Positions 13,407 to 48,829 are shown, counted from the stretch's first letter. The stretch is DNA of 64,000 bases from Halobaculum rubrum (GCF_019880225.1 NZ_CP082284.1:248001-312000), one strand, 5' to 3'. The notes: generated by a model not told the origin, from the sequence alone. Made by a program: numbers and translations.

Positions 13407-13480
13407 GGGCCAATAGCTCAGTCAGGTTGAGCGCTCGGCTGATAACCGGGAGGTCCACGGTTCAAATCCGTGTTGGCCCA
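13407..13480 (+). tRNA. tRNA-Ile (GAT anticodon)
   Basis: The 74-nt sequence folds as a cloverleaf: acceptor GGGCCAA/TTGGCCC with discriminator A, D-stem GCTC/GAGC, anticodon stem CTCGG/CCGGG with loop CTGATAA (anticodon GAT at 13441-13443), T-stem CACGG/CCGTG with loop TTCAAAT. CCA is not encoded. It is the integration target: the last 13 bases (13468-13480) are the crossover core shared with the element, so integration leaves the tRNA complete. Confidence 0.97.
13468..13480 (+). other. Attachment core (attL side, inside tRNA-Ile)
   Basis: CCGTGTTGGCCCA is identical to 49938-49950. Upstream of the core the two sites differ at once (AAT versus TTC), downstream they are identical for the rest of the window because the element repeats. 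It covers the 3' half of the T-stem and the acceptor strand, a standard archaeal tyrosine-integrase target. Confidence 0.9.
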
Positions 13481-13486
13481 TATCCG

Positions 13487-17181: not shown

Positions 17182-17622
17182 TTAGTTCGGCGTGTCTTCG
17201 CTCGCGAGTGCTTGGGAGGTATCGCCGTTGGACGATGTCCAAAGCACGCGAACCGTCTCTCCAGCGGGCACGGCCCCGCCGGTGTCAGCACTAAGATTTG
17301 CTGTCGTTCCTGCACTTACTGGGAGTTCGAATGGAGTCGACTGACCACTGGTGGCATTCAGCGACAGTGAGCCAGTGTTCTGGTCGTTGATCGTGGCGCC
17401 TCCGGTGTGAGTAGCGGTGACATTGTAGTCACCGGCAGTCGCCGTCTCATTGAAATCGAATTGGAAGTTCGCATTCGGCGTCGTCTGCTGAACGCTGTTA
17501 CCCAATCCGAGGACGAACGATCCGATGACGGCCGCGAGGATCACAGTGATCGCGACCATAAGGATGACTCCGATGACAGGGGAGACGGCGCGATCGTCGT
17601 CGAGTAGTTGGTTAAAATTCAT
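17182..17622 (-). CDS. Type IV pilin-like protein 1
   Basis: A 146-residue protein with an archaeal class III signal peptide: [12 protein letters not shown] followed by a hydrophobic helix ([15 protein letters not shown]). The prepilin peptidase PibD would cut before the A-V-S-P segment. The rest is a Ser/Thr/Asn-rich surface domain with N-glycosylation sequons. The first 47 residues are almost the same as in the next gene. Pilins are not part of known pleolipovirion sets, so this pair may be lysogenic conversion genes. Confidence 0.85.
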
Positions 17623-17628: not shown

Positions 17629-18042
17629 TCAGGGCGCGGTTTCCTCAGCGAGTGCTTGCGAAGTATCTCCATTTTGGGAGACCCAGAGGACGCGAACCGT
17701 CTCACCTGAAGAGTACGTCACATTGGTAATACTATCTCCAGCGCTCATTTCACCACCACTGTAAGGGGCAGAATCGACACTCGTGTTCAGTGAGACGCGC
17801 TCATTTGCAGGGATTGTGTCTCCACCAGTGTGCGTTGCGTTAACAACGGCGGTGTCGGAAGCGTTCTCGCCAAACTCGAATTGGAAGTTTGCGTTCGGTG
17901 CGGTCTGCTGCACGGAGTTTCCGAGGCCGAGGACGAACGAGCCGATTACGGCCGCGAGAATCACGGTGATCGCGACCATAAGGATGACTCCGATGACCGG
18001 AGACACGGCACGATCGTCGTCAAGTAGTTGCTTGAATTGCAT
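17629..18042 (-). CDS. Type IV pilin-like protein 2
   Basis: A 137-residue paralogue of the neighbouring pilin, starting at ATG 18040-18042. It shares the H-domain [12 protein letters not shown] and the C-terminal V-R-V-L-W plus N-G-D-T-S-Q-A-L-A, while the middle differs. Likely exported through Sec and assembled by host pilus machinery. It is first of the two-gene unit; about 220 bp of AT-rich DNA upstream would carry the promoter. Confidence 0.85.
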   Translation of the reverse strand: MQFKQLLDDDRAVSPVIGVILMVAITVILAAVIGSFVLGLGNSVQQTAPNANFQFEFGENASDTAVVNATHTGGDTIPANERVSLNTSVDSAPYSGGEMSAGDSITNVTYSSGETVRVLWVSQNGDTSQALAEETAP

Positions 18043-18264
18043 TGTTAGTAGTTTCCACACAGCGTTGTCCAGCCGGGATCCCCCCGACACTGCTGTGATA
18101 ACTAAATTACGGTGTGCTTACTTAATAAGTATTTCCTCCTAGGTTTCAAGAATGAAAATGACAATTAGACAGAATTCGCCTAAACCAATAGTAGAGCCGT
18201 ATACTACAAACGGCGACACAGTAATGTTGGTAAGGCTAGTCATCCAACCTAACTGATAGAGATC

Positions 18265-21688: not shown

Positions 21689-23437
21689 CTAGCTCGGCGT
21701 CGTCACTTTGAGATACACGAGCCCGGCCACCGCGAGGATCGCCGCCGCCCCGCCGACGGATATCCCGAGCAGCGCCGCGAGCCTCTCAAAGAGCCCCTCG
21801 TTTGTCTCGGCGGCGCCGCCCGACGCCTTCGGTTCGCGACTCTCGATCTCCTCGCGGAGTTCGAGGATACGATTCATCTTTTCGAGTTGTTCACTCGTGT
21901 TGCTCGTCTTGTAGACGACTTTCTTGGTTGTCACCTCGTTTATTTGACCTCCTTCCTCATTGGTGATTGAGGAAACAGTGAACTCTCCAGAGAGTTCCGT
22001 AGTCTTACCACCAGTGTGGGCGAGTAGGACCGGTCCGGTGATGTTCGACGTGTTGTACGTGGTTCCAGCCTGCCACGAGCCATTCGGCGCGTTGCGCGCC
22101 ATCAGGAACCCGTTGTACGTCGCGCCCTTGTACTGGACTTCCATCGTCCCGGTCCCGTTGAGTTCCGGAGAATCGAGTCCCATGGATGAGAGCGCAGCCA
22201 CCACGTCGTAGGTGGAGTTCGTCCCGTCGACAGCCGACTGCCCGTAGCGGAACATCTGTGTGTTCCGACTCAGCACGTCAGCCGCGTCGATCTGTCCCGA
22301 CTCGTACGCTTGCCACGTGTTTTCAACGAAAACATCCACCTCGCTCTGCAGGGCGGAGTTTTGAGATTCAATCCGATCCCACCGATTTGCGTAATCGGCG
22401 AAGCGGATGTATGTCACCTGATCGTAATCAGAATTCGGCGGTTTGATCCGGAGGTAAGTCACATTCTGTCCGTGGTAGTAACTCCCCTCTTGAGTCTCGC
22501 CCTGCGCGGAAACCTGATTGACAGTTACAGAGTCGGTCCTCGTTCTGCCGTTCAGAGATTCCTTCTCTTTGAACCTGTACGCTTTCACACCGTGAGCGGT
22601 GCCGTTGGCAAGTGTGACAGACGTATCGACGGTGCCGATGAAGTACGAATTAGCCGAATTCGCATTCGTGTAGGCCGCACCGGCGTTAGCGTCGAGGACG
22701 TTTTCGGCAGTCAACGCAGATTCGTTCTGAGCGACGCCGAGCATCACATCAGCCGACTTCGCAGACGCATTGTAGGACTCGATGAGATTGATCTGCTTGA
22801 CAACGTAGTACTCCTGAATTGCCTGTTGCGCTTTGGACTTCGCTAGCGCCTTCGAAGAGCCGTTTTCATACGCTTGAGCGATCGCCATTTCTGCCTGCAT
22901 CCACGCGGCGGATTCGGTGTCGTTGAGGTAGTTGTCGTACACAGCGGATCGAGTCTCAGTCTCCGCTTTTTGCTGTAATCCGGAGTTGTAGATGTCGAGA
23001 TGCGTTTGATTAGCATCCGAATCTTGCATGTCCTCAATCGCCTGCGCGCGGTGCGAGTCGGTACACTTGCCATCGAACAGGAACTGATCGGTGGCGTAGC
23101 CGCCGAGGCCAAAGGAGAACGTCGCGAGCCGCTGTGTCTCCGAGCAGTCGTGCGTCGCGGACGCCGGTGCAACCGGCGACCCGGCGAACGGCGCCCCGAT
23201 CGCCGCCATCACGAGCAGCCCCACGACAAGCACGCCGCCAACCCGCTCGCGCCTCGGCGTGATCGAGGCGACGAGCCCGCGCAGATCAGCGTCGAGCCCG
23301 ACGCGAGCCATGACTATGACCAGCGCTGCGATAGAGAGGACGGTCGGAGCGATCCACTCGCCCCGGAGTGTCAGGAACCCGGCCGCCGCGAGCGATGCGA
23401 CGGCCGAGTATGTGAGCAGCAACCGATTCCAGATCAT
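21689..23437 (-). CDS. Spike-like membrane glycoprotein (VP4-type)
   Basis: A 582-residue protein with N-terminal membrane segments (three hydrophobic stretches in residues 5-95), a large exported domain rich in N-x-S/T sequons (for example Y-N-A-S, N-G-T-A, N-V-T-Y), two cysteines near residues 98 and 124, a coiled coil near the C-terminus (E-Q-L-E-K-M-N-R-I-L-E-L-R-E-E-I-E-S) and a final membrane helix. Coiled coil plus C-terminal anchor on a protein of this size is the pleolipovirus spike layout. The spike mediates receptor binding and fusion. Confidence 0.75.
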   Translation of the reverse strand: MIWNRLLLTYSAVASLAAAGFLTLRGEWIAPTVLSIAALVIVMARVGLDADLRGLVASITPRRERVGGVLVVGLLVMAAIGAPFAGSPVAPASATHDCSETQRLATFSFGLGGYATDQFLFDGKCTDSHRAQAIEDMQDSDANQTHLDIYNSGLQQKAETETRSAVYDNYLNDTESAAWMQAEMAIAQAYENGSSKALAKSKAQQAIQEYYVVKQINLIESYNASAKSADVMLGVAQNESALTAENVLDANAGAAYTNANSANSYFIGTVDTSVTLANGTAHGVKAYRFKEKESLNGRTRTDSVTVNQVSAQGETQEGSYYHGQNVTYLRIKPPNSDYDQVTYIRFADYANRWDRIESQNSALQSEVDVFVENTWQAYESGQIDAADVLSRNTQMFRYGQSAVDGTNSTYDVVAALSSMGLDSPELNGTGTMEVQYKGATYNGFLMARNAPNGSWQAGTTYNTSNITGPVLLAHTGGKTTELSGEFTVSSITNEEGGQINEVTTKKVVYKTSNTSEQLEKMNRILELREEIESREPKASGGAAETNEGLFERLAALLGISVGGAAAILAVAGLVYLKVTTPS

Positions 23438-26274: not shown

Positions 26275-26433
26275 ATACGGAGCAAGACCACTCATCAAAG
26301 CCACTAGCGGTCTTACCACTCACTTTTCCTCCCTCATATTTGTAGAAATGGGTATGAGTGCCTCCACAGATTCCTCAGATGAATTATATTTGAAAACAAT
26401 AATGTAACCGGAAGATGGTTTTTGACTACTGGA

Positions 26434-29214
26434 ATGTCGGAGCCTCAATCACCACTGACTGATATCCCCGCTGTCGGAGCAACTCGTTCGAAGCGTCTCC
26501 AAGAGGCGGGATTTGCGACCATTTCCGACATTGGCGATGCAGAAACAAATGAACTGGCCAATGTCCCGGCGATAAACCCGGATATCGCACGCTGTGTCAG
26601 GCAGGGAGCTAGGGAGTTACGGGGTGATGATGACACGATTCAGAACCAGATAGCGACCGACTGCGGTGTGCCGAGAGAAGCAGTCGCCGAAGCGTTCGCC
26701 GAGATCGCTTATCGGGGAGGGTCGTTCGAGACTAAAAGAACCGCCCTCCGGGAGGTGTTCTGCAAGGCTAATGAGGAATCCATCCTGCACCTCAACGGAC
26801 ACTCGCTAAGATTTCTTTTTCTGCTGTACAACGCCGGCTTTCGTGATCTCGACGCCGTCGCGAGCGCCTCTCTCAGCGAGCTCATTAACGTAAGTTACTT
26901 CGATAAACAGCGGGCCCAAGAGGTCAGAGCAACCGCACGCAACGCGAAGGCCGACATGCGGGGGCGCTCCTCTGAGGAACAGTCGAGCGAGGAAGGCGTC
27001 GGGACGGAGTTCATCTGCGAGGAATGCGGCGAAACGTTCGAGTCCGAATCCCATATCCAACAGCACAGCCACCGCAATACCGAAGCTAAGGACGCATCTC
27101 GACAGTCCGACTCGAATCCGGGAGGTACGTCCTTCGAAACGTCACCACGCGTTACAAGGGATCAGGCGCAGAAACTCCTTGAAGAGAGCATCGGCCCCGA
27201 GGCCGAGTTCCGGCCACAGCAACGGGAGGCCATCAGCAGACTGGTTAACCAGAAGGAACGCCTATTTATCGTCCAGCGAACGGGGTGGGGGAAGAGCACC
27301 GTTTACTTTATTGCGACACGGTTGCTCCGAGACCAAGGTTCAGGGCCGACCCTCATCATCAGTCCACTCCTATCGCTGATGCGAAATCAAATCTCGAATG
27401 CCGAACAGCACCTGAACCTCAACGCAATCACCATCAACTCCAACAATGAAGGGGAATGGGACGAGGCCAAAAGGGCGGTGATCGAGGGGAACTGCGATTT
27501 GCTGCTTATATCACCTGAACGACTCGCGAATCCGGAATTCCGGCAGGATGTCCTCAACGAGATGGAGCAGGGATTCGGGATGCTCGTCATCGACGAGGCC
27601 CACTGTATCTCCGACTGGGGCCACGACTTCCGCCCTGACTATCGGCGTATCAAGCGCATCATCAAACGGTTGCCGGAGAATATCCCGGTCGCTGCAACGA
27701 CCGCGACGGCGAACGACCGGGTGGTCGAGGACGTTACCACACAACTCCCAGACCTAAACCCGATTCGCGGCACGCTTGTCCGCGACTCACTCAAAATCCA
27801 GACAATCAACCTGGGCTCCCGGGAAAGGCGCCTGGCGTGGCTAGCCGAAAACGTGACCGAAACCCCAGTCTCCGGCATCATCTACTGTCTCACCACCAAT
27901 GAGGTCGAACAAGTCGCCGACTGGTTAACCGACCAGGGCCTCGACGTCCTCCCGTATCACGGGCGGCTCGACAACGAAGTCCGCCGAGAGCGCGAACAGA
28001 AGCTCCTGGACAACGAAGTCGACGCTCTGGTCGCGACCAACGCGCTCGGAATGGGATTCGACAAACCTGATCTCGGCTTCGTCATCCACTTCCAGCGTCC
28101 ACCTAACCTCATCCGATACTATCAAGAAATCGGACGTGCCGGGCGAGACATCGACGAGGCGTACGCCATCCTCCTTTCTGGCGAAGAAGACGACGACATC
28201 GCCGAGTACTTCATCGAGAGCGCATTTCCGGAGCCCGAGGATTTCGAGAGCGTGCTCTCGACAATCGGGACGAGCGACGGGCCAGTTTATCGCCGCGCGA
28301 TCCTGAGACGGACGGACATCAGCTGGAGGCGGATGAACAAGTGCCTCGATATCCTCCAGGTGGAGGGAGCCATCAGCAGGGAGGATGAGGGCTATGTGAG
28401 AACTGCAAACTCGTGGCAGTACGACTACGAGCGGTTCGAGCAGGTTACAGAACGGCGTTGGGAAGAGCTCGAACGAATTAAAGAGTTTGTCAGAACGGAT
28501 GAGTGCCTCACCCAGTTCGTTGATGACGAACTCGACGGGGACCTGGAAGAGCCCTGCGGGCACTGTGCGAACTGCGCCGGCAACTTCCTCCCATCCGCCG
28601 TTCAGAACGAGGAGTTGATTCAGGAGGCAATTGAGCACTACCAAAGCGAGGGATGGAACGTGATCGAGCCCCGAAAGCAGCGGCACAAACAAGGTGGCGG
28701 TCGCGAACGAATCCCTGAGAGGGTACGCATGGAGGCTGGTCGGGCACTGTGTGTCTGGGACGACCCCGGCTGGGGAACGGACGTTCGGGAAGGCAAGTAC
28801 GAACAGGGCCGCTTCGGCGACGATCTCGTCGAGGCAGCCGCCGCGTTCATCCGTGAGGAATGGAATCCATCCCCGGAGCCGAAGTGGATTGCAGCTGTGC
28901 CCTCGACATCGACCGAAGGAGTGGTCACCGACTTCGCCAGCCGGCTGGCAGAGAAGTTGGACATTCCATTTATCGATCGCATCAAGAAGGTGGAGAACAC
29001 GCGTCCTCAGAAGGACATGGAAAACTCGTACCAGAAGTGCTGGAACGTCGAGGGGGCGTTCAATACAACCGACGAAGTCCGCGGCGATGCAGTCCTTCTC
29101 GTCGACGACGTAGTTGCATCCAAGTGGACGTTGACAGAGACAGCAAAGGAGCTTCGCTTGGCCGGAAGTGGGCCGGTATATCCCTTCGCCTTAGCCAAGC
29201 GCCGAGGCGGGTAA
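26434..29214 (+). CDS. RecQ-family helicase fused to a phosphoribosyltransferase-like domain
   Basis: A 926-residue protein from ATG 26434 (a TTG 12 bases earlier is in frame). Order: helix-hairpin-helix-like segments (residues 1-170, two repeats), a C2H2 zinc finger (F-I-C-E-E-C-G-E-T-F ending H-S-H-R, about 190-215), a RecQ helicase core with unusual Walker A R-T-G-W-G-K-S-T, D-E-A-H box and helicase C domain (G-M-G-F-D-K-P-D; R-P-P-N-L-I-R-Y-Y-Q-E-I-G-R-A-G-R), a zinc cluster C-G-H-C-A-N-C, and a ComF/PRTase-like C-terminus with V-L-L-V-D-D-V-V-A-S-K-W-T. Paired with the DprA-like gene 6 bp downstream; defence or DNA-uptake processing is the likely job. Confidence 0.85.
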   Translation: MSEPQSPLTDIPAVGATRSKRLQEAGFATISDIGDAETNELANVPAINPDIARCVRQGARELRGDDDTIQNQIATDCGVPREAVAEAFAEIAYRGGSFETKRTALREVFCKANEESILHLNGHSLRFLFLLYNAGFRDLDAVASASLSELINVSYFDKQRAQEVRATARNAKADMRGRSSEEQSSEEGVGTEFICEECGETFESESHIQQHSHRNTEAKDASRQSDSNPGGTSFETSPRVTRDQAQKLLEESIGPEAEFRPQQREAISRLVNQKERLFIVQRTGWGKSTVYFIATRLLRDQGSGPTLIISPLLSLMRNQISNAEQHLNLNAITINSNNEGEWDEAKRAVIEGNCDLLLISPERLANPEFRQDVLNEMEQGFGMLVIDEAHCISDWGHDFRPDYRRIKRIIKRLPENIPVAATTATANDRVVEDVTTQLPDLNPIRGTLVRDSLKIQTINLGSRERRLAWLAENVTETPVSGIIYCLTTNEVEQVADWLTDQGLDVLPYHGRLDNEVRREREQKLLDNEVDALVATNALGMGFDKPDLGFVIHFQRPPNLIRYYQEIGRAGRDIDEAYAILLSGEEDDDIAEYFIESAFPEPEDFESVLSTIGTSDGPVYRRAILRRTDISWRRMNKCLDILQVEGAISREDEGYVRTANSWQYDYERFEQVTERRWEELERIKEFVRTDECLTQFVDDELDGDLEEPCGHCANCAGNFLPSAVQNEELIQEAIEHYQSEGWNVIEPRKQRHKQGGGRERIPERVRMEAGRALCVWDDPGWGTDVREGKYEQGRFGDDLVEAAAAFIREEWNPSPEPKWIAAVPSTSTEGVVTDFASRLAEKLDIPFIDRIKKVENTRPQKDMENSYQKCWNVEGAFNTTDEVRGDAVLLVDDVVASKWTLTETAKELRLAGSGPVYPFALAKRRGG

Positions 29215-29220
29215 GTCCAA

Positions 29221-30282
29221 ATGGAGCAACCCGACCTCTCCCGTGATAGCCATGTGGTCCTCCTCCTTGCCTCCCACCTCGGAGGGGAACCAGATGGCGA
29301 GGGCTCGGATAGCGGCCTCGGGCCGGCTGGCTGGCAGGATTTCGCCACCAACGTCGCCGACTCCTCCCTCGACTCGCCCGGTTCACTGCTAGAACTGGAA
29401 CCAGACGAGTGGCCCACGGACATCTGGACGAATCAAGCCAATCGAGAGTGGGTGACACAGCGACTCGGTCGATCGACGCGTTTAGCGATGTCACTTGAAG
29501 ATCTCAACAATCGGGGCATTTGGGTTACGACTGTCTACGAGCCATCGTATCCATCTCGGCTTGCTGAAAACCTCGGTCGAAAGGTACCACCATTCCTCTA
29601 CGTGGCTGGCGAGGAAGAACACCTCTCGACTACTGCGGTCGGATTCGTCGGGTCCCGGGACGCAGACGAGACCGATCGAGGCCACACTCGCCGACTGGTC
29701 GAGAAGGTGAGCGACGATGGATTTGGGATTGTCTCGGGTGGTGCGAAGGGAATCGACGAAACGTCCGAAAAGACAGGATTGGAGTACGGTGGCCCTGTAA
29801 TTGAGTTTCCCGCGGAGGGGATTCATCACTGCCTCCAAGATGGGACCATCCGAGATGCGGTGATGGAAGGCCAGATGACACTCGCCTCGCACTACCATCC
29901 GCGTGCATCATGGAACGTTGGGGCGGCGATGGGACGGAACAAGCTGATTCATGGCTTCGGGAAGTATACAGTCGTCGTGCGGTCCGGAGACGAAACTGGG
30001 GGGACGTGGGAGGGTTCAATCGAGAATCTCAAGCACGGATGGTCGCCACTCCTCGTCTGCAAGGATGACGACACACCCCCGGGAAATGAGGCCTTAATCA
30101 AAGAGGGTGGAATACCGATCGACCCGACTACAATCCCAAAAGAGGAATCGCTTGACGAGTGGATAAGTGCGCAAAGGCAGAACGTATCTGATTCGGTCGG
30201 GCATGACGACCGGCCAACGCGCTCAGTCGACGAAATAAATTTGCCGAACGACACGCAGTCCTCCCTCAACGACTTCGAGTAG
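29221..30282 (+). CDS. DprA/Smf-like DNA-processing protein
   Basis: A 353-residue protein with a DprA-type Rossmann fold: F-V-G-S-R-D-A-D (about 143-150), S-G-G-A-K-G-I-D (about 175-182), and T-G-G-T-W-E-G in place of the usual S-G-T. DprA loads RecA on single-stranded DNA in bacteria; stand-alone DprA-like proteins also occur in defence loci. The N-terminal 100 residues are not conserved DprA sequence. Starts 6 bp after the helicase gene stop, so one operon. Confidence 0.8.
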   Translation: MEQPDLSRDSHVVLLLASHLGGEPDGEGSDSGLGPAGWQDFATNVADSSLDSPGSLLELEPDEWPTDIWTNQANREWVTQRLGRSTRLAMSLEDLNNRGIWVTTVYEPSYPSRLAENLGRKVPPFLYVAGEEEHLSTTAVGFVGSRDADETDRGHTRRLVEKVSDDGFGIVSGGAKGIDETSEKTGLEYGGPVIEFPAEGIHHCLQDGTIRDAVMEGQMTLASHYHPRASWNVGAAMGRNKLIHGFGKYTVVVRSGDETGGTWEGSIENLKHGWSPLLVCKDDDTPPGNEALIKEGGIPIDPTTIPKEESLDEWISAQRQNVSDSVGHDDRPTRSVDEINLPNDTQSSLNDFE

Positions 30283-31189: not shown

Positions 31190-31432
31190 CCATCTGCTGA
31201 ATAGATTCTCTGTATCCCGCATGCCGATCCTATCAGTTTTTGAGGTTTCAACAGAACCGGAGCGTTCACTTACACATCGGAATCATCATTGATGGGATAA
31301 ACGGGGGTTGCTGAGATGATCGCAGGACAGCACTGCTTTTGATCCCTCAATCAGCACCGTCATTTGGCCGTGTTTTACTTCCACTGAGCATGGACGGCTC
31401 GCGACTATTGTCCAGTAGTCTACCCATGAAGT

Positions 31433-32185
31433 ATGCAACGCGACTGGTCGAACGGTGGGGTCGAGCTACCGTCACTCCAGCCGGGAGTAACGCTACTCGA
31501 TATCGACTCGTCCCTTGGCGTCGAACCGCTGTGTGCGGTCGTCCTCGATCATTTGCTCGGGGAGTCCGGTCGGGCGTTTTGGGTTGACGCCGGCGGACAC
31601 GCTCGAACCCGAACGCTTCACCGGCTCGCTCCCCATTCGAGATACCTCGACCGGATTACGGTCGGGCGGGGGTTCACCGCCTATCAGCACGCTTCTCTAC
31701 TGGATCGACTCCCGCGGATCGTCTCGAATAGTGCCCTCGATAGGGAGCCGCCAGCCCTTGTCGTTGTGCCGGGCATGGACCGACTTTATCGAGACGACGA
31801 TATCCCTCGCGAACAAGCGCGGGATCTCCTCGTTCGCCGACTCGCGACGCTCGCTGCTATCGCTCGGGAACGCGAGGTCCCCGTAGTCCTCACCCGGTCA
31901 CGTGAGGACGAATTGAGCGAGCCGCTCGTGGCCGCCGCTCGCGAGACACTGACCTGTGAGGCAACGAAATTCGGACCGCGGTTCACCGACGAGGAGGGTG
32001 AAGACGAGACGTTGGTCTACCACCTCGGTGACGGCTGGATGCAAACCACGCTCGCGTTCTGGCAGGAAATCCTCCAACACCGTGCCCGTGCTGCCGGCGC
32101 TCTGGTCGACGAGGACGGTCCCGCGGCGGACACACCAGGTAACGTCCCGAGCCCATCCACACCCGTGACCCCGGAGGGATGGTGA
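31433..32185 (+). CDS. RecA/RadA-like protein lacking Walker A
   Basis: A 250-residue protein with the strand order of a RecA-like core: T-L-L-D-I-D where the P-loop should begin, then L-C-A-V-V-L-D-H-L-L, G-R-A-F-W-V-D-A-G-G, and a Walker-B-like strand A-L-V-V-V-P-G-M-D-R-L-Y. No G-x4-G-K-S/T is present, so ATP hydrolysis is unlikely. The C-terminus is Pro-rich. It overlaps the next gene by 7 bases and is two genes before the polymerase, recalling bacterial ImuA, a RecA-like partner of mutagenic polymerases. Confidence 0.65.
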   Translation: MQRDWSNGGVELPSLQPGVTLLDIDSSLGVEPLCAVVLDHLLGESGRAFWVDAGGHARTRTLHRLAPHSRYLDRITVGRGFTAYQHASLLDRLPRIVSNSALDREPPALVVVPGMDRLYRDDDIPREQARDLLVRRLATLAAIAREREVPVVLTRSREDELSEPLVAAARETLTCEATKFGPRFTDEEGEDETLVYHLGDGWMQTTLAFWQEILQHRARAAGALVDEDGPAADTPGNVPSPSTPVTPEGW

Positions 32186-32505
32186 CTGTGGGCCGGACGA
32201 ACCCGACGTTCCGCGATATTCTCTCGCGGATGGAAGACGAGTGGGGCGACTTCCGGCGTGCGCTCCGTCGACGACACCAACCGCTATTCGATCGGCTCTG
32301 GACCTACGCCAGAGAGCACGCCGACGCGGCGGGGAATCTCAACCATCCCGACCGACTCGCTCCCGTGCTCGTGAGTATCGACATCGAACAGGAGGACCGG
32401 ATCGACGAACTCGAACGCCGCGTCTCGGAACTGGAGGCGGAGGTTTCGGACGAGGAGTCAACGGCGGACCGATCCTCCGAGGTGGCCGCCACCGACGACG
32501 AATAG
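32179..32505 (+). CDS. DUF8156-like small protein with C-terminal coiled coil
   Basis: A 108-residue protein. Its N-terminus (G-R-T-N-P-T-F-R-D-I-L, then Y-A-R-E-H-A-D-A-A-G-N-L-N-H) is typical of the haloarchaeal DUF8156 family; the C-terminus has a coiled coil (I-D-E-L-E-R-R-V-S-E-L-E-A-E) and an acidic tail. Start at ATG 32179, or GTG 32188 which gives the usual M-G-R-T-N start. Sits between RecA-like and polymerase genes in one operon. Confidence 0.75.
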   Translation: MVTVGRTNPTFRDILSRMEDEWGDFRRALRRRHQPLFDRLWTYAREHADAAGNLNHPDRLAPVLVSIDIEQEDRIDELERRVSELEAEVSDEESTADRSSEVAATDDE

Positions 32506-32511
32506 CCCCAG

Positions 32512-34719
32512 ATGGTACTCGCGATAGACTACGACAACGATTCCGTTACCGAATGGCGACTTACAGCGGACGGAGTGGAGCGGACAGTCGTCGACGACTA
32601 CCGGCCTACTCTGTTCGTCGGATCCCCAGTCTCCGAGCTATACGGCCGGGACGGCGGCCCGAACCCGGAGCCGAAGCTGGCGAGACGCGGCGCTATCCCT
32701 GAATCACTTCGTGACCTCCGGTCGTTCCTCGACGGACAAGACGCGGTCGCGGATCTGACGATCGACGTGTGGCGGCAGACGTTCCGGTCGAGCGCGCGGC
32801 CGGTCCTCCGTGTTGATTGTCGACGGATCGAGGACATCCGATCGGTCGCGCGCCGGATCCACCAATTCGGAGATCCCGACGCCTATACCTGCTACAACGT
32901 CGATCTCACGCGGCAATTACGCTACACCCTCGAAACCGATACCGAGGCGGCCCCCGATACCTCGATTCGGGACCTCCGCACTCTCCGTATCCAGTTCCCG
33001 GCTCACGAGTCGGATCACTCGGCGCTGAGTCAGCTCCGGGTCAACGGAGAACAAGTCGGGTCTTCCCCACGAGAGGTCGTGGAGGCCGTCGAACAGCGCG
33101 TTTCATCTGTCGATCCCGATGTTCTAATCGTCGATACGGCCCGCGTGGTTCCGTTGCTGTTCGAGGCGGCCGCGGAATACGGGCTGGAGCCGTATTCACT
33201 CGGGCGTGAATTCGGATACACACAGTTGGCCTCGGAGTCGACGTACACGAGCTACGGGAAGGTCGGTCACTCCCCGGCACGGTACTCCGTTCCCGGACGG
33301 GTCATTCTGGACCGTGCAAACACGTTCTTCTACGGCGAATCAGGGCTTGACGGGTGTCTAGACTTGGTTGAGCGTGCGGGCTTACCGTTGCAGGAACTCG
33401 GGTGGGCGTCGATTGGGCGCGTGCTGACGGCCATGCAAATCCGCGAGGCGCGGTCTCGGGGCGTCCTCGTCCCCTGGCGGGCATGGCGTCCCGAGTTCTT
33501 CCGTTCCGCCTCGACGCTGGACACCGCTGATCGAGGCGGAACGACGCTCGCGCCGGAGGTCGGCGTTCACGAGGACGTCCACGAACTCGACTTCGCGTCG
33601 ATGTACCCGAACATCATCCGCGAGTACAACATCTCGCCGGAGACGGTCCGTTGTGGCTGTTGTGACAACGATGCGGTCCCGAAGATCGGCTACTCCATCT
33701 GCGAGCGAGACGGCTATCTCCCGGACGTTCTCGGGCCACTCATCGACGGGCGGAGCGATATCAAACGGCGGATCCGCGAGACGAACGATCCCGATGAACG
33801 GGCGACGCTGGAGGCCCGTTCCTCCGCGATCAAGTGGATTCTCGTGTCTTGCTTCGGATATCAGGGGTTCTCGAACGCCAAGTTCGGGCGTATCGAGTGC
33901 CACGAGTCGATCAACGCCTTCGCTCGCGAGATCCTACTGGATGCGAAAGCCGCACTCGAAGAAGGTGGCTGGCGTGTGCTTCACGGGATCGTTGATTCGA
34001 TCTGGGTGACGCCCGCACCCGAGGTCGCCGAGAGCGACAGACGGTCGCTCGACGACATCGCCGCGGAGGTGTCCGGGGAGACACAGATCGAGTTGGAGTA
34101 TGAGGGTGCGTTCGACTGGGTCGCGTTCTGTCCACGTCGCGGCGGCGACGGCGGGGCACTGACACGGTACTTCGGCCGGCGACGGGGCGTCGAGTATCCC
34201 GACGACGGGCTCGGAGACGCGGTGAAGACACGCGGGATCGAGTCGCGACAGGACGACACCCCGGCATGGATCGCGCAGCTCCAGTCGACGCTGATTCGGA
34301 CCCTCGACCGGACCCACGACGTGGAGGCGGTCGTGTCGAAACTCGCGTCGGCGCTCGGTCGACTGGAGCGCGAGGAGCTCCCGCCGACGGACCTTCTCAT
34401 CACACAGCGCGTGTCGAAGCGGGCCGAACAGTACCGTCACGAGACGGTGACGGTCGCCGCGCTCAAGCGCGCGAAGTGGAAGAACTGTGCGTTAGCGCCG
34501 GGACAGCGCGTCGAGTATCTGGTGTTCGACGACGCCGCCCACGGGCTGGGGCGGGTCCGGTTAAGTCACGAGGAGTTGCGGTCCTACGATACCGGCTGGT
34601 ATCGCAAGCAAGCGATCCGGGCCGCCGAAAGTGTGTTGTCACCGCTCGGGTGGGACCGTGAGCGGATCCGGCGGTCCCTGTCGGGGTATTCGGACAGCCG
34701 ACTTTCGGCATACGAATAG
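32512..34719 (+). CDS. Family-B DNA polymerase, exonuclease-inactivated
   Basis: A 735-residue family-B polymerase. Motif A is L-D-F-A-S-M-Y-P-N-I (about residue 360), motif B is K-W-I-L-V-S-C-F-G-Y-Q-G (about 441), motif C is G-I-V-D-S-I-W-V (about 493), with the catalytic Asp kept but the usual first Asp of D-T-D-S replaced. In the exonuclease domain the D-I-E site reads R-I-Q and the N-x3-F-D site reads D-T-A-R-V-V within D-P-D-V-L-I-V, so proofreading should be lost. It is the end of a three-gene operon and its last codons overlap repeat R3. A translesion or repair role fits better than replication. Confidence 0.85.
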   Translation: MVLAIDYDNDSVTEWRLTADGVERTVVDDYRPTLFVGSPVSELYGRDGGPNPEPKLARRGAIPESLRDLRSFLDGQDAVADLTIDVWRQTFRSSARPVLRVDCRRIEDIRSVARRIHQFGDPDAYTCYNVDLTRQLRYTLETDTEAAPDTSIRDLRTLRIQFPAHESDHSALSQLRVNGEQVGSSPREVVEAVEQRVSSVDPDVLIVDTARVVPLLFEAAAEYGLEPYSLGREFGYTQLASESTYTSYGKVGHSPARYSVPGRVILDRANTFFYGESGLDGCLDLVERAGLPLQELGWASIGRVLTAMQIREARSRGVLVPWRAWRPEFFRSASTLDTADRGGTTLAPEVGVHEDVHELDFASMYPNIIREYNISPETVRCGCCDNDAVPKIGYSICERDGYLPDVLGPLIDGRSDIKRRIRETNDPDERATLEARSSAIKWILVSCFGYQGFSNAKFGRIECHESINAFAREILLDAKAALEEGGWRVLHGIVDSIWVTPAPEVAESDRRSLDDIAAEVSGETQIELEYEGAFDWVAFCPRRGGDGGALTRYFGRRRGVEYPDDGLGDAVKTRGIESRQDDTPAWIAQLQSTLIRTLDRTHDVEAVVSKLASALGRLEREELPPTDLLITQRVSKRAEQYRHETVTVAALKRAKWKNCALAPGQRVEYLVFDDAAHGLGRVRLSHEELRSYDTGWYRKQAIRAAESVLSPLGWDRERIRRSLSGYSDSRLSAYE

Positions 34720-38450: not shown

Positions 38451-40133
38451 ATGGCTGAAAAGGACGACTCTCGAAATATCAAACCACGCTCAGATATTCC
38501 TGCAAGTGCTGATGAAATCATTGCTGGCGCTCCTGATCAGAATCTCAGCACCGATATCGCTGCTAATATTGTTGGAATGCGGAGCGCTCACTTCAGAAAG
38601 ATCGTTCGAGAGGGGCTCGGTGGGACTATCGGAAAGACGACCTCCTTCGAGACATTAGCGAAAGTATATGCACGGTCCCGACCTTCACCTTCTGTTCTCA
38701 CAGACAAGCACTTCACCACGGAGGAGGGTCAAACGGGCCTAATCGACTTGGTCGAATATCTTGAAGATCCGGCCGACCCACCGAATCAAAGCAGATGGTC
38801 TTCAGACGAATTTGAGACCAACCAGATTTTCCTTGGTTCCGTTTTCGATCATTTCTCACAGATCCCGTTGAACTCCATCCAATCTGTGATTACATCTCCC
38901 CCCTACTGGGGAATGAGAGTTTATTCAGAGGAGTTTGAGGTTCAGTGGTCAGACGGAACGGAGGTACCGTTTGGTGGGGAACAAACACCAGAAGATTACA
39001 TTCGACACACTCTTGAGCTTTTCCTCCGACTCAGACCAATTCTTACTGATTCAGCAACTATCTGGTGGAATGTAGGAGATGTTTATAACACCAGAACAGA
39101 AATCAGGGAAACTTCGATGGATCGGAAAAAAGCGGTCGTTAACAACGAAGAGCGCTCTTGGGCGAATCTGGATGCGAAGCGTGATTCATACGGACATGAA
39201 TACCTAAAAGATAAAGACCTCACGCTGATCCCATTTCGAATCGCACAGGGATTGCAGCGGTGTGGGTTTTATGCCCGATCTGTAATCACCTGGAGAAAAG
39301 AGAAAGTCGTCCCTGAAACAGTCAGCGATCGACCCACGACTGGGCACGAAAATCTGCTACTAATAAGCAATTCGAGTACTTACCAATTCAATGAGAAAAG
39401 GTGGAGAGAGGAAGAGAGAAAATCATTCGGAGGGCGTTCTCGACACGAAAATAAAGATCTGAGGACTGTATGGGAACTGGATCACATTAAAGGCGGGTTG
39501 AAGGAACAAGAAGCCGCGATTATCGACGAGCTGGGCAATATAATGGATGTCCTGTCAGAGACGAACAAAAAGGACACCTCAGAGATGTTACCGGCGGAAA
39601 CAGAGAAGCAACTTCAAGAGCGGCTGAAACAATTATTGGCCTTGCTCGCGGAAGAACGAGATAGCATTCAGCAATCGATACTGGATCCAGAAGAGCACGA
39701 AGTCGTCGCTAAACGGGATTCCCCGAACCACTTCTCAGAGGGAAGTGAATTAGAACGAAGCCCCTCTAACCAAGACCTGAGAAGAGGTCCGCCCGTCTGG
39801 TCTATGCCTGTTGCTGATGGGAAATATAAGCACGCAGCACCTTTCCCAGTTCAGTTACCAGCTCGATGCATCTTATTGAGCATTGCAAGGAGTGCTTCCG
39901 GGGATTCCGACCAAGAAGTAGTATATGACCCCTTCATGGGTTCAGGAACGACTGCTGTGGCGGCAGAGAATATCAAAAGACTGGACAGCGGATTTAACTT
40001 CTCTTGGATAGGGTCAGAAATCGTTCCTAAGTACAAGAAACTCGCGGAGGACCGTATCAGCCAGATGAGAACAGATGAAGACCCAGATGAATGGATCACG
40101 ATCGATCAGACTACGATGAAGGACTTCAGTTGA
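38451..40133 (+). CDS. DNA methyltransferase, beta class (N4C or N6A)
   Basis: A 560-residue methyltransferase. Motif IV is T-S-P-P-Y-W-G-M-R (about residue 150) and motif I is D-P-F-M-G-S-G-T-T (about 492), so the order IV before I puts it in the beta class. A 100-residue coiled-coil insert (about 340-430, K-E-Q-E-A-A-I-I-D-E-L and E-K-Q-L-Q-E-R-L-K-Q-L-L) could be a recognition spacer. Followed by McrB- and McrC-like genes on the same strand, it would protect self DNA in a LlaJI-like system. AT-rich compared with the rest. Confidence 0.88.
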   Translation: MAEKDDSRNIKPRSDIPASADEIIAGAPDQNLSTDIAANIVGMRSAHFRKIVREGLGGTIGKTTSFETLAKVYARSRPSPSVLTDKHFTTEEGQTGLIDLVEYLEDPADPPNQSRWSSDEFETNQIFLGSVFDHFSQIPLNSIQSVITSPPYWGMRVYSEEFEVQWSDGTEVPFGGEQTPEDYIRHTLELFLRLRPILTDSATIWWNVGDVYNTRTEIRETSMDRKKAVVNNEERSWANLDAKRDSYGHEYLKDKDLTLIPFRIAQGLQRCGFYARSVITWRKEKVVPETVSDRPTTGHENLLLISNSSTYQFNEKRWREEERKSFGGRSRHENKDLRTVWELDHIKGGLKEQEAAIIDELGNIMDVLSETNKKDTSEMLPAETEKQLQERLKQLLALLAEERDSIQQSILDPEEHEVVAKRDSPNHFSEGSELERSPSNQDLRRGPPVWSMPVADGKYKHAAPFPVQLPARCILLSIARSASGDSDQEVVYDPFMGSGTTAVAAENIKRLDSGFNFSWIGSEIVPKYKKLAEDRISQMRTDEDPDEWITIDQTTMKDFS

Positions 40134-40256
40134 GGAGATAGAAGCATATTTTTATTCTACAATATAGCTCCGGAATTAGTATAGGCATCTCACCGTATCC
40201 TTGAGCATCGGTTCGAAAGAACCAGGTCCCCACAAAGAAAGGAACCAGGAAGACGG

Positions 40257-41930
40257 ATGTCCAACGAGCATGAAGGGTCCTCCCCTCCCTATCATATCAG
40301 CCTGGATCGCCTGAAGAGTTCGGTCGAGAATCTGCTAGTACGTGCTAATAGATACGGACCAGCTACATATGTGACTTTCTGGTTCATCCTCAAGATGAGA
40401 GGGTTGAAACCTGGTGGGGACCGCGTCTTGATTAATGAGGAAAATGGAGAGCCTTTACTTGATCATCTACTGAGAGTCGAAGATCTAACAGACTATATCG
40501 ACGCTGACGATACTCCCTATTATGACATATTTGTGGGTGCAACTCGAAAAGAATCCGCTGACAAAAACTATTGGCAGAATAATATTGGAAATTTCTATCA
40601 GAACCAGAATGCATCTAACCCGGAGAAATGGCTCAATATAGAGGAGGTCGATGGGGAATATTACGCCTCTTATACCGACGAATTCGCCGATTATCTCGGA
40701 AGGGGAAAAGACGGATTCGCTCCAAAAGGAAAGCAGCTGGAAATCCCCCTTATCGATATGATGGCGTGGTACTTTCGGTATCGGTCCTTTGACAAAAAGC
40801 CGTCATACGATGAGCTGCTAGAAGAATTCACAAACGATCTCCATCTCAGCCAGATTGAGCTCAATCTGGTTTTTGACCGGTCAAACACAGATATTGATGG
40901 GCTATTTGAAGAGAACCTCCGTATGGGGGAGAAGAAGAAAGAGCTAGCAAGGTTCTTGGCGGATCATCTGGAAGAGCAGCAAAGCGGATACAGTGTTGAC
41001 ATTGAACCGAGCGAACAACCGGACAAATTCAGCGAACGAAAAAGAGATACGATAATTTACTCATCAAGGAACACAATGTATGACACATTTGATCCGTCAG
41101 TTGACCCGAGTGAGGATCTACATGATGCGGTTGTCGAGGACGGGAAACGAAATCTGATCCTCGTTGGACCGCCCGGAACTGGAAAAACCCACACTGCAAT
41201 ACGAACTGCGGAAAAGCTCGGTGAAGAGACCTTCTTCTTCCAATTCCATGAGTCATACACGTACGAGGACTTTGTTGAGTCATATGAACCGACGTTTAAG
41301 GGAGGAGAAATTGTCGGATTCGAACCGATACAGAAAGGCTTCATAAAGTCTTGCCAGAAAGCTCAGGAAATATCTGATGATAAGTATGTGTTTGTAGTTC
41401 TTGACGAAATCAACCGAGCGAAAGTATCCAGAGTATTTGGAGAACTGTTTTCTCTTATAGAATATCGAGAAGACATAACAGAAATGGATGTGAACTTGCA
41501 GACATTGTATTCAGGAGGATCTATCGTTGTTCCAGATAATCTAGTTATCATAGGTACCATGAACAATTTAGACAAGTCAACTGAAGATATTGAATTTGCA
41601 CTCAGACGTCGATTCTCTGAGATAGAAGTTCCACCGTCTACGAATCTACTAAGAGAGCTTCTGCGTGAACAGAGTGATTACGACTGGGAACAAGAAGAGA
41701 TAGACGAGTTAGCACGATTACTCAACATAGTCAACGAGAAAGGAGACTATCCACTCGGGCCTACGTATTTCAGAGGGATGCAAGGCATTGATGACTTATT
41801 GAAAGTCTATAGAAGAGAAATAAGGCCTTCAATAAAGCAGTATTTTGGAGAATATAGAGAAGAGCAACTCGAAACAGTAGATGGATTCTTCGAACTCGCC
41901 TCTGATTTGGAGCTGTCGGAGGACAGTTGA
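40257..41930 (+). CDS. McrB-like AAA+ NTPase, restriction subunit
   Basis: A 557-residue protein. The N-terminal 280 residues are a probable DNA-recognition domain (Y-W-Q-N-N-I-G-N-F-Y-Q-N-Q shows an adenine-rich helix). The C-terminal AAA+ core has Walker A G-P-P-G-T-G-K-T (about 303), Walker B F-V-V-L-D-E-I-N-R-A-K (about 379) and the McrB signature M-N-N-L-D-K-S (about 436), with arginine finger segment F-A-L-R-R-R-F. It would drive DNA translocation with the McrC-like partner whose gene overlaps by TGATG. Confidence 0.88.
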   Translation: MSNEHEGSSPPYHISLDRLKSSVENLLVRANRYGPATYVTFWFILKMRGLKPGGDRVLINEENGEPLLDHLLRVEDLTDYIDADDTPYYDIFVGATRKESADKNYWQNNIGNFYQNQNASNPEKWLNIEEVDGEYYASYTDEFADYLGRGKDGFAPKGKQLEIPLIDMMAWYFRYRSFDKKPSYDELLEEFTNDLHLSQIELNLVFDRSNTDIDGLFEENLRMGEKKKELARFLADHLEEQQSGYSVDIEPSEQPDKFSERKRDTIIYSSRNTMYDTFDPSVDPSEDLHDAVVEDGKRNLILVGPPGTGKTHTAIRTAEKLGEETFFFQFHESYTYEDFVESYEPTFKGGEIVGFEPIQKGFIKSCQKAQEISDDKYVFVVLDEINRAKVSRVFGELFSLIEYREDITEMDVNLQTLYSGGSIVVPDNLVIIGTMNNLDKSTEDIEFALRRRFSEIEVPPSTNLLRELLREQSDYDWEQEEIDELARLLNIVNEKGDYPLGPTYFRGMQGIDDLLKVYRREIRPSIKQYFGEYREEQLETVDGFFELASDLELSEDS

Positions 41931-43234
41931 TGAGTGGACTACAAAGCTACAAGATAGAATTCCCCCCTGGGGCCTCACGTCCATTAGTAGAAAACTGCTC
42001 AGACGATAGAAATCAGCTGTCAAGTGAATTCAACCCGTCAATATTACCTGACGACTATCAAGACTACCTTACATTAGAACTTAGCTCATCTGGGGAATAC
42101 AGGGCCAATACCGGACCATACGTGGGAATACTGTCGTGCAAGGATGGGTCATACCTCCCAATAAGACCAAAAACAGAGGTGGGGAACATGACATATTTCC
42201 TTCGCGAAAGCGGCAGAATTGCCCAAGATCTTGACACACCATTCGACGAAGATGTTCCCTATCAGACAGTGACAGACAACCTGATAGGAATGCGTGAATT
42301 GTATGTTCAACATTTTCTAAATCAACTGGACAAACTCAAGCGAGATGGTCTACTTAAGCAATCTATAGTAACAAGCATTGAATCTAGCCGAGTAGAGGGA
42401 CGAATAAATGTGAACAGATACAGCAAGAATATTCTCTCGGGGAAACCCAATAAAATACCTCAGTCCGTCAAAAGCCAAAGTATTGATAATATTCCAAATA
42501 TGTTCCTGAAGCTTGCACTCAGATACCTAATGAATATGAGGCTCATAGGGATTGATCGAAGAGAAATTGCAGATAGACTGGATTATTTTCGTCCCGTATC
42601 AGAGTTCGATAGATCGGCGAAAATAGACGAGATCAAAGCTCAGATTCGAGAAGTAATTGCAGAGAACGAACTCCCGCCGTCCCGGTCATATTATTATCCC
42701 CCTCTTGATTCTGCTTTACTCATCCTTGACCAGAGCGGGATAACAGTTGATAAAATCGTGGATAGCAAGGCCCAGAGTTTTATGTTTAATATGCAAAGTG
42801 CATTTGAAGACTACATACGTAGAACTGTTCGGCGCCTTCTCAAGCCAAAAGGCTACGATGTTTACAACGGTGTCAGCCAGGCACATAGATTAGACCTATA
42901 TGATTCTCAAAGTTACAGCCGTTTACCTCTAGAACCAGATATTTTGGTAGCTGACGGAATGAACAATATCGGCGTGATCGACGTTAAGTACAAAGATGAA
43001 TTATCAAGCTCCGACCATTATCAGATTTGGACTTACAAGCAACAATACGATGTAGAATTAGCAGCGTTCGTGTCTATACCAAAGAATCCCTCACAGAGAC
43101 TCGACGTAGAAAAATACAATCGTAATGGGTCTGGCAATCAGATCTCGAATTTCCGCTTCTGGTTGGGAGACTTTAGTGCGTCTGAAAACTCTCTTTCTGA
43201 ATTTTTGAGCAACTCCGAAGCAGTAGGCCCGTAG
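41930..43234 (+). CDS. McrC-like nuclease subunit
   Basis: A 434-residue protein, ATG 41930 overlapping the McrB stop. The N-terminal domain (Y-V-G-I-L-S-C-K-D-G, L-P-I-R-P-K) is a McrC-type DUF2357-like region. The C-terminus has a PD-(D/E)XK site: E-P-D-I-L-V-A-D-G then I-G-V-I-D-V-K-Y-K (about 337-355), followed by Y-Q-I-W-T-Y-K-Q-Q-Y. With the McrB-like subunit it would form the endonuclease. Confidence 0.85.
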   Translation: MSGLQSYKIEFPPGASRPLVENCSDDRNQLSSEFNPSILPDDYQDYLTLELSSSGEYRANTGPYVGILSCKDGSYLPIRPKTEVGNMTYFLRESGRIAQDLDTPFDEDVPYQTVTDNLIGMRELYVQHFLNQLDKLKRDGLLKQSIVTSIESSRVEGRINVNRYSKNILSGKPNKIPQSVKSQSIDNIPNMFLKLALRYLMNMRLIGIDRREIADRLDYFRPVSEFDRSAKIDEIKAQIREVIAENELPPSRSYYYPPLDSALLILDQSGITVDKIVDSKAQSFMFNMQSAFEDYIRRTVRRLLKPKGYDVYNGVSQAHRLDLYDSQSYSRLPLEPDILVADGMNNIGVIDVKYKDELSSSDHYQIWTYKQQYDVELAAFVSIPKNPSQRLDVEKYNRNGSGNQISNFRFWLGDFSASENSLSEFLSNSEAVGP

Positions 43235-43419
43235 GCAGATCTCAACGGAACAGCGACCAGAGTTGATTACCGTTTGGAGCTTAGCGGGTGAAGTCTATAG
43301 AATTCCAATTGTGAGTCGGTTCACTTCCACCGCTAATCCCCCGCCCGCATCCGGGTGCATTTCACTTTCACTCTGCCCATGGCTCGCTTCTAATACCAGA
43401 CCGTGTCGCTAATGAATTG

Positions 43420-43776
43420 ATGTCAGGAACAACCGAGAACCGGGGGACGTTCACGCACGTCCAAGGCGAACTCGCGTGGACTATCGCCGAACAACGCTCC
43501 CCGAGCGAAGCGATCACTCTGACCCGCCACCTCACAGAAGCCGACGAAGGCCGGTACGAACTACTCGGACTCATCAACGAGTGCGAGGTCGCTCTCTACT
43601 GGGACTACTTCTGGAACCACGTCGTCGCCGCGAACTTCGACGAAACCGGCGTCGACGATCTCGCCCGGGATACTCCTGAGGAGATCCGGTACACCGGACT
43701 CGGCGCGTACTTCGCCGAAGTTGAACTCGACGACTGGGACTGGATCCACCCCCGTCACCAATGGCACGCGGAGTGA
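43420..43776 (+). CDS. Conserved-looking small protein before the Orc1/Cdc6 gene
   Basis: A 118-residue acidic protein (W-T-I-A-E-Q-R-S-P-S-E-A-I-T-L-T-R-H, later Y-E-L-L-G-L-I-N-E-C-E-V-A-L-Y-W-D-Y-F-W). The first part could be a small wHTH, but this is not clear. GC returns to high here. Its end overlaps the Orc1/Cdc6 gene, so they form an operon. Confidence 0.6.
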   Translation: MSGTTENRGTFTHVQGELAWTIAEQRSPSEAITLTRHLTEADEGRYELLGLINECEVALYWDYFWNHVVAANFDETGVDDLARDTPEEIRYTGLGAYFAEVELDDWDWIHPRHQWHAE

Positions 43777-44774
43777 CCGCGTCGGTCCCGCGGGTCCTGG
43801 AACTCGACCGCGTCCCGGAACGGATGCCCCACAGGGACGCCACGCTCGGCCAGTTGGCGAACGCTCTCGACCCGCTCCGCTCGGACCGACCAGCGTACCC
43901 GATCTGTCTCTCCGGCCCGACCGGCGCCGGCAAGACGGCCGTCTCTCAGTTTGCCGTCGGAGAACTCCGCCGAGAGACGGCGGTGAACACTGCGCACGTC
44001 GACTGTCTCCGAACACGCTCGCGGGCCGCGATACTGCAAGAGGCGCTCGTCGATGCCGGACTCAAGACACGGTCGTCGCCGAAGGCGGACGCCGCATCGT
44101 CGTACCTCGCGCAGATGGAGGACGCCGACGCGCCGCTCGTCCTCACGCTCGACGAGGCGGAACACATCGAGGACGAGCACCTCCCGCACGTCCTCTTCGA
44201 GGCGGAGGGCGTGACGCCGATATTCGTCGTCCACGAGTACGAGCGGTTCGCGGCGCGCCTCGACGCCGCGACGGCGTCGCGGCTCCGCACCGGCCCGCAT
44301 ATCGAACTGAGCCGGTACAGTCAGTCGGAACTCGTTGACATCCTCCAGGCACGCGTCGACGCGGGCGACCTCTCCGGGATCACGGGCGGGACGCTGGAAC
44401 TGATCGCGGACACCGCCGCCGGAAACGCGCGGGAGGCGATCTCGATCCTCCGGGAGGCCTACGTTGAGGGGAAGACCCGCGACGAACGGGTCACGCCGGC
44501 GTTGATCGCCGACGTTCGCGAACCAGCGATGGAGTCGATCCGGCGATACAACGTCGAGCGCCTGGACACGCCGCATCGACTACTGAAGCACATGATCGAC
44601 GACGCGGGCGAGATCCGGGCCGGGGAGTTGGCAGACCTCTTCGAGGCGGAGTACCCGGACGCGAACGGTCGCGACCGTCGCCGGTATCTGAACGTCCTCG
44701 TTCGCTACGGGTGTATCCGGAAGCAGGGGAGTGGGCGGGGAACGCGGTATCTCTCAATTGGAGCCACTGAATAG
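43761..44774 (+). CDS. Orc1/Cdc6-like replication initiator ATPase
   Basis: A 337-residue AAA+ protein (ATG 43761, or GTG 43773 giving a GTGA overlap with the gene before it). Walker A is S-G-P-T-G-A-G-K-T, Walker B is V-L-T-L-D-E-A-E-H, followed by sensor and lid segments, with a C-terminal winged helix (L-N-V-L-V-R-Y-G-C-I-R-K). Such orphan Orc1/Cdc6 proteins are frequent on haloarchaeal plasmids where they start replication or regulate locally. It gives this element a second possible replication system beside the Rep-like protein. Confidence 0.85.
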   Translation: MARGVTASVPRVLELDRVPERMPHRDATLGQLANALDPLRSDRPAYPICLSGPTGAGKTAVSQFAVGELRRETAVNTAHVDCLRTRSRAAILQEALVDAGLKTRSSPKADAASSYLAQMEDADAPLVLTLDEAEHIEDEHLPHVLFEAEGVTPIFVVHEYERFAARLDAATASRLRTGPHIELSRYSQSELVDILQARVDAGDLSGITGGTLELIADTAAGNAREAISILREAYVEGKTRDERVTPALIADVREPAMESIRRYNVERLDTPHRLLKHMIDDAGEIRAGELADLFEAEYPDANGRDRRRYLNVLVRYGCIRKQGSGRGTRYLSIGATE

Positions 44775-48521: not shown

Positions 48522-48829
48522 CGCTGGACGTGACGCGGTACATCGTCGGCCGGACGGCGTCGATCTCCTACGGGCCGACGGGCGCGAACGTCGAGGCGTG
48601 GGAACTCCGCTTCTCGACCCGAGAGGACGAGCGGATCGTGATCCGGTTGGACCGCGCGGACATGTACGAACTCTGGACGGAGGTCCGCGGCGTTCCGTGG
48701 CCGACGGTTCACAACGATCCGGAGCGTCGCGAGAAGGACGAACTCGTCCGTGAACTCGTGGAGCGGGCGAACGTCGCGGACGCCGCGCAGCTCCGTGAGG
48801 CGCTGGACACGCTCGGGGGACGAGAGTGA
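48518..48829 (+). CDS. Small protein before the integrase (103 aa)
   Basis: Starts at GTG (GTGA overlap) and is coupled to the integrase by another GTGA. Strand-rich first half (Y-I-V-G-R-T-A-S-I-S-Y, W-E-L-R-F-S-T-R-E-D-E-R-I-V-I-R-L) and helical second half (R-R-E-K-D-E-L-V-R-E-L-V-E-R). SNJ2-type viruses need small partner proteins near their integrase for recombination; this could be one, but only position supports it. Confidence 0.6.
   Translation: MTLDVTRYIVGRTASISYGPTGANVEAWELRFSTREDERIVIRLDRADMYELWTEVRGVPWPTVHNDPERREKDELVRELVERANVADAAQLREALDTLGGRE

Follow-up and report, generated by a model that had tools for sequence, protein, structure and literature searches.

The 64,000-nucleotide stretch of the Halobaculum rubrum genome analysed here (GCF_019880225.1 NZ_CP082284.1:248001-312000; hereafter the window, from whose first letter positions are counted) contains, at 31433-34719, three intact open reading frames (ORFs; 31433-32185, 32188-32505 and 32512-34719), which lie in a single orientation with near-zero gaps and encode, in this order, the RadA-like protein iRadA, the small protein PPB2 and the family-B DNA polymerase PolB2. 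This is the gene order of the PolB2 mutasome, i.e. of an operon described in 2014 (Makarova 2014; PMC4104785) and modelled in 2025 as a heteropentameric mutasome with a PolB2:iRadA:PPB2 ratio of 1:1:3 (Timinskas 2025; PMC11791011). All the hallmarks of the PolB2 mutasome that can be tested in a sequence (the gene order, an inactive RadA-like protein, the MGRT arm, the DxD substitution, a dead exonuclease and the D(K/R) motif; compare PMC11791011 and PMC4104785) are found at the locus, and they bear out the archaeal mutasome-like module that a first-pass annotation had proposed for it, the idea itself being already in the literature. Thus, the three genes very probably form a haloarchaeal PolB2 mutasome of the published kind. 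Given these hallmarks, the published operon and the presence of PolB2 above its curated family cut-off in 241 of 391 haloarchaeal genomes, the protein module is to be regarded as already known; what is new here lies around it, in the element that carries it and in its regulatory signature.

The three proteins and their relatives

The first gene (31433-32185, plus strand) encodes a protein of 250 residues with the RadA/Rad51 fold, which lacks both the Walker A motif and the N-terminal helical domain, the latter being absent from its AlphaFold2 (AF2) model. Matches of the single sequence are weak (E=1.4e-3 to Pfam Rad51; 19 bits to the RadB model TIGR02237, the cut-off of which is 172), but the profile of the 32-member iRadA family retrieves solved RadA structures of the PDB with E=9e-13, and the AF2 model (predicted local distance difference test, pLDDT, 87) finds the cores of RadA, DMC1 and RAD51 as its top Foldseek matches, with a best E-value of 2e-12. 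The RecA fold expected of the first protein is therefore present and, as also anticipated, this RecA/RadA paralogue has no P-loop: GxxxxGK[ST] occurs neither in the iRadA of the window nor in its 31 relatives (32 members scanned), so that the Walker A ATPase of the RadA/RadB recombinases is lacking. A scan for clamp-binding motifs returned QTTLAFW, which is non-canonical, its spacing being one residue short of QxxLxxFF; according to the published mutasome criteria, only part of the family carries such a motif in iRadA or PolB2.

The second gene (32188-32505, plus strand) was assigned to the small helical PolB2 partners of the arCOG07300 type on the basis of its alignment and N-terminal arm. 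Its true start is the GTG at 32188, from which the protein begins MGRTNPTFRD, so that the diagnostic MGRT arm is present. This signature of PPB2/arCOG07300 is found in 68 of 73 relatives, and M1, G2, R3, T4 and R9 are invariant in the family alignment. The label 'DUF8156-like', initially attached to this gene, was abandoned, being without Pfam support in 21 members.

The third gene (32512-34719, plus strand) encodes a type B DNA polymerase (NCBIfam NF004418, 924 bits), 77-80% identical to close Halobaculum relatives, the AF2 model of which (pLDDT 83.7; predicted template modelling score, pTM, 0.80) aligns over its full length with archaeal PolB (Foldseek; E=4e-39 to 9N/KOD PolB). Motifs A (DFxxxYP) and B (K...SCFGY) are kept, with D360, K441 and Y450 conserved, as the first-pass annotation had stated; its claim that the catalytic Asp of motif C is also kept needs correction, since the sequence here is HGIVDS, 24 of 24 aligned relatives have GIVDS, and the second Asp of DxD alone survives. 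As for the exonuclease, a profile alignment to Pyrococcus PolB places the DIE of Exo I opposite QFP and shows no N...(F/Y)D at Exo II; the Exo III segment is apparently deleted in a rough alignment with the genome's own PolB3. The loss of acids that had been claimed for Exo I and Exo II thus stands, although not the reading R-I-Q given for the former, and the check for acids elsewhere found no substitute in PolB2 by sequence, in agreement with an exonuclease-dead polymerase. The D(K/R) motif, which contacts the PPB2 arm according to the published criteria, is found as GRVILDR at residues 262-268, with DR in the window and DR, DK or DE in most relatives; the rough alignment suggests that it is the counterpart of the GRxxFD stretch of PolB3. 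The C-terminal sequence [LIV]xx[FY] (about 34685-34716 in the window), with at most one further residue, is common to all 24 aligned PolB2 proteins; it resembles the end of a PCNA-binding box minus its Gln and is also non-canonical.

The three genes are found in this order at most of 80 fetched PolB2 loci, so that their grouping is not due to chance, and the ratio of non-synonymous to synonymous substitution rates (dN/dS), calculated against three relatives, is 0.09-0.16 for all of them, i.e. strongly purifying selection maintains the mutasome genes. Many loci reside on plasmids: 158 PLSDB records match PolB2, distant matches to other PolB included, and 88 of them do so with at least 80% query coverage. 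No viral homologue of PolB2 was found in a viral scan, and IMG/VR and phage collections yielded no close viral relative, the phage matches being distant (30-33% for those of the Leptospira LE1 type, lower for others). The second replicon of H. rubrum (C2, 93.7 kb) carries a third PolB2, 77% identical, as part of a divergent mutasome in which iRadA and PPB2 lie 3.4 kb upstream and the insert that separates PPB2 from polB2 includes MarR-like and PemK-like genes. Insertions recur between PPB2 and polB2, a hot spot that has received toxin-antitoxin-like, helix-turn-helix and other genes (C2:31888-38510; loci L007, L008, L009, L032, L034, L040, L047 and L070), and some of the 80 loci are broken (e.g. 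L068, L084 and L086).

In some operons with an exonuclease-dead PolB2, a stand-alone DEDD-type exonuclease-like protein (RNase_H_2; DIETTGF...YNGERWNGGFDLPFLR) is encoded directly after PPB2. Such genes are found at L034:6393-7040, in L069 (a Halovenus salina plasmid), at L032:1144-1788 (Halopenitus) and, on the minus strand, at L029:6292-7044, and remnants are a relic at L040:7754-7927 and a fragment at L111:12789-13028 (pNRC200 VNG_RS11795). The protein could possibly proofread or trim in trans for PolB2.

Besides the same genes in the same order, the P-loop loss, the MGRT arm, the DxD substitution and the dead exonuclease, the locus shares a nearby Orc/Cdc6 gene with the described archaeal and bacterial PolB2 mutasomes (e.g. 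the Sulfolobus Dpo2 operon; PMC11791011, PMC4104785). Unlike these, it resides on a tRNA-integrated pleolipovirus-like element, which is present twice in tandem in the assembly and also carries PsyrTA and McrBC genes, and its promoter bears a haloarchaeal UV-B motif. Among haloarchaea, the PolB2 of H. volcanii (HVO_A0065, with a radA-like gene nearby) and that of Halobacterium pNRC200 are encoded on secondary replicons; the latter is 49% identical, and its locus differs in a truncated PPB2 and an IS605-type insertion ahead of polB2. With respect to function, a parallel with E. coli Pol V (UmuD'2C-RecA) has been drawn in the literature, both systems combining a RecA-family subunit, an arm of a small subunit and an error-prone polymerase, although Pol V uses a Y-family polymerase, an active RecA and an unrelated small subunit. 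In ImuA-ImuB-DnaE2, too, a RecA-like protein is joined with a mutagenic polymerase. The likeness to this bacterial system, noticed in the first-pass annotation, holds as a functional analogy and not as kinship: neither a C-family DnaE2 nor a Y-family-like ImuB is present in the operon, the polymerase of which belongs to family B, and ImuA-ImuB-DnaE2 is an analogue of the PolB2 mutasome rather than a relative.

The carrier element

The operon lies within an integrative element of 36,470 bp (13468-49937), delimited by self-BLAST and comparison of the attachment sites, at the 3' end of a tRNA-Ile gene (13406-13481). A second copy with 0 differences follows directly in tandem (49938-86407 in window numbering, i.e. 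beyond the window), and the core CCGTGTTGGCCCAT is found at all three element junctions; the pair is explained either by two integrations in tandem or by the misassembly of an excised circle. An integrase-like gene (48826-49878, plus strand; phrog_1 integrase, E=3e-22) adjoins the right end, and a gene at 21689-23437 (minus strand) encodes a homologue of the pleolipovirus spike (VP4/VP1), with 42.9% identity over 70% to HRPV-1 VP4 and a match to phrog_2231. The suggestion that the module sits on a virus-like element is thus supported, and the operon appears to be cargo of an integrated pleolipovirus-related element. This element is far larger than the matched pleolipovirus records (36.5 kb versus 7-17 kb) and may, therefore, be defective or hybrid. 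Carriage by pleolipoviruses as a general rule was rejected: although 219 of 391 genomes have spike genes, the 10-kb flanks of 80 PolB2 loci contain none; since the spike of the window lies about 8-10 kb from the mutasome, flanks of this size exclude general carriage only partly.

Of direct relevance to the regulation discussed below is an AAA+ protein of the Orc1/Cdc6 family (43761-44774, plus strand; TIGR02928, E=6e-30; Pfam AAA_22/Cdc6_lid), relatives of which are found within 10 kb of PolB2 at 40 of the PolB2 loci. Immediately upstream of the mutasome, a defence pair of the PsyrTA type (26422-30282, plus strand) consists of the RecQ-PRTase PsyrT (26422-29214; PADLOC, 873.7 bits) and the adjacent DprA-like PsyrA (29221-30282; 280.3 bits); this PsyrT of an archaeal provirus is extended at its N-terminus by a helix-hairpin-helix and has a C2H2-like finger ahead of the helicase. 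Genes for an N4/N6 DNA methyltransferase, a McrB-like AAA+ protein and a McrBC component stand in a row at 38451-43234, probably as a modification-dependent restriction cassette, and the element also encodes a serine recombinase and a Schlafen-AlbA protein. Finally, two adjacent genes on the minus strand (17182-17622 and 17629-18090), which share an 85% DNA repeat, encode archaeal type IV pilin-like proteins with near-identical N-termini, a Pilin_N match being shown for the first.

Promoter motifs

A UV-B-type promoter motif, TTTTACTTCCACT, a variant of the published haloarchaeal one, is found at 31373-31385 (plus strand), 60 bp upstream of the start codon of iRadA, and a second, TTTCACTTTCACT, at 43360-43372 (plus strand), upstream of the operon formed by the element's ORF 43417 and the Orc/Cdc6 gene. 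In Halobacterium, TTTCACTTTCA precedes the UV-B-induced radA1 and other genes, and the near match TTTTACTTTCA lies upstream of npa (Boubriak et al. 2008, PMC2556686). On pNRC200, TTTTACTTTCA precedes the IS605-type gene directly upstream of polB2, as the UV-B-type motif precedes the mutasome here; because of this location, npa is probably that IS605-type gene. No link between the UV-B motif and polB2 was found in the searchable literature.

Within the H. rubrum genome, TTYCACTTCCACT has two exact matches, in the promoters of radA and of the iRadA of C2. The exact pattern ACTTYCACTTYC matched the C2 site only, and a broader form of the motif was therefore used. TTTYACTTYCAC gives ten matches, versus one for the reversed pattern, which comprise the two tandem mutasomes, the two tandem Orc operons of the element, the C2 mutasome, radA, the chromosomal orc1 (NF001626, 740 bits), a 62-aa ORF, a threonine dehydratase-like gene and the gene of a small acidic protein. 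The composite ACTTYCAC-N2-10-ATGGCT has five matches and none when reversed; one of the five marks a second promoter on C2, immediately ahead of polB2, i.e. this polB2, separated from its PPB2, is preceded by a UV-B-type motif of its own.

In a comparison across species that allowed at most one mismatch, the UV-B motif is found in 13 of 57 non-redundant regions upstream of iRadA (0.3 in shuffles), and only two of the 13 come from outside the Halobaculum/Halorubrum group. The reversed-pattern control is also high (10/57, again with at most one mismatch), and it is a weak one because the motif reads nearly the same backwards; better controls are the shuffles and the genome-wide count, which, summed over 29 genomes, gives 152 matches versus 50 reversed. 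A direct repeat, GGAA-N4-6-GGAA, usually in the form T-TCGGAAnT-TCGGAA followed by a TATA box, occurs in 26 of the same 57 regions (0.6 in shuffles), with zero overlap between the two sets of promoters. It is found in 21 of 35 promoters of neighbouring Orc/Cdc6 genes as well (0.4 in shuffles), and at both genes in 12 loci. A resemblance of this repeat to origin recognition boxes (ORBs) was not confirmed, PMC3528665 containing one ORB-like element with GGAAAC, which is suggestive only.

The Orc1-2 protein of Sulfolobus binds ANTTTC in the promoter of its own gene and is an activator of Dpo2, i.e. of PolB2 (PMC9738581). An Orc/Cdc6-family gene tied to PolB2 control and an element on both its own and the polymerase promoter would make the haloarchaeal arrangement similar, and the ACTTTC inside the haloarchaeal motif fits ANTTTC, a fit that may be due to chance. 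Together with this precedent, the motifs and repeats shared between promoters suggest that the haloarchaeal Orc proteins linked to polB2 may be damage-response regulators.

A proposed damage-inducible mutasome and its alternatives

The Sulfolobus work, in which PolB2 is reported to be required for damage-induced (targeted) mutagenesis (PMC11791011), and the published models point to damage-induced error-prone translesion synthesis as the function of the operon, possibly under an Orc1-2-like regulator. By analogy with these systems, DNA damage would derepress or activate the iRadA promoter and induce the operon; PolB2 would dock on iRadA by a contact like that between Rad51 protomers in an oligomer, and be locked by the N-terminal arm of a PPB2 trimer; the complex would then extend distorted or mismatched primer ends past lesions and, with no proofreading, leave mutations, so that both survival and mutation would be raised. 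The best candidate for the damage-responsive regulator would be the Orc/Cdc6 protein of the same element, by analogy with Sulfolobus Orc1-2. A more specific and tentative proposal is an SOS-like haloarchaeal circuit, in which an Orc1-2-like Orc/Cdc6 paralogue may bind an operator in the promoters of its own gene and of the PolB2 mutasome. This operator would be the GGAA direct repeat of 9 bp that immediately precedes the TATA box or, for the Halobaculum/Halorubrum group, the UV-B motif TTTCACTTTCA, which radA has as well. A pleolipovirus-like element may have captured both parts of the circuit, the mutasome and its regulator, and so made mutagenesis portable.

Several points weigh against damage-induced translesion synthesis under such control. 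PolB2 lacks the first Asp of motif C; the TTTTACTTCCACT of the window is one base off the form found at C2 and radA; matches of this 13-mer with one mismatch also arise by chance (7 with the reversed pattern); the promoter-motif evidence is correlational; and the candidate role of the Orc protein derives from neighbourhood, a common motif and analogy.

Because of the first of these points, the family was described earlier as inactivated (PMC4104785), and the complex might, as proposed in 2014, regulate replication or repair structurally around a catalytically inactive PolB2, with the replacement of the first DxD Asp in 24 of 24 relatives and the dead exonuclease in its favour. This seems improbable, since the Sulfolobus PolB2 with a like substitution (IID) is an active polymerase (PMC11791011), and motif A, motif B and the second Asp of motif C are conserved. 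That genes for PolB2 and for an Orc/Cdc6-like protein occur together on the element, and that archaeal viruses and elements often encode PolB, would be accounted for if the two were the element's own replication module, with no damage response; the absence of proofreading and the abnormal motif C would be odd for a replicase, however, the mutasome is found in 241 of 391 genomes, the flanks of other PolB2 loci lack the remainder of this element, and mutasome promoters bear a UV-response motif common with radA, all of which makes this explanation even less probable than an inactive polymerase. Still more doubtful is a mutasome acting on invading DNA as a functional part of a defence island (PsyrTA, Schlafen-AlbA, McrBC and methyltransferase): it lies directly downstream of PsyrTA and near McrBC in the same element, but 80 other PolB2 loci have essentially no relatives of PsyrT and PsyrA within their 10-kb flanks, and a functional tie to PsyrTA/McrBC was dropped, as such genes do not recur there. 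Decaying cargo or relic genes, to which the lost P-loop and exonuclease residues and the broken loci elsewhere might point, can be dismissed as most unlikely, the ORFs being intact, dN/dS low and the losses family-wide hallmarks.

With damage-induced translesion synthesis as the preferred reading, the promoter element common to radA, the Orc/Cdc6 genes and the mutasome provides a concrete operator for asking what drives the DNA-damage response of haloarchaea. Furthermore, it can now be tested whether archaeal viruses and plasmids disseminate inducible mutagenesis in the way that bacterial plasmids do with genes of the umuDC type.

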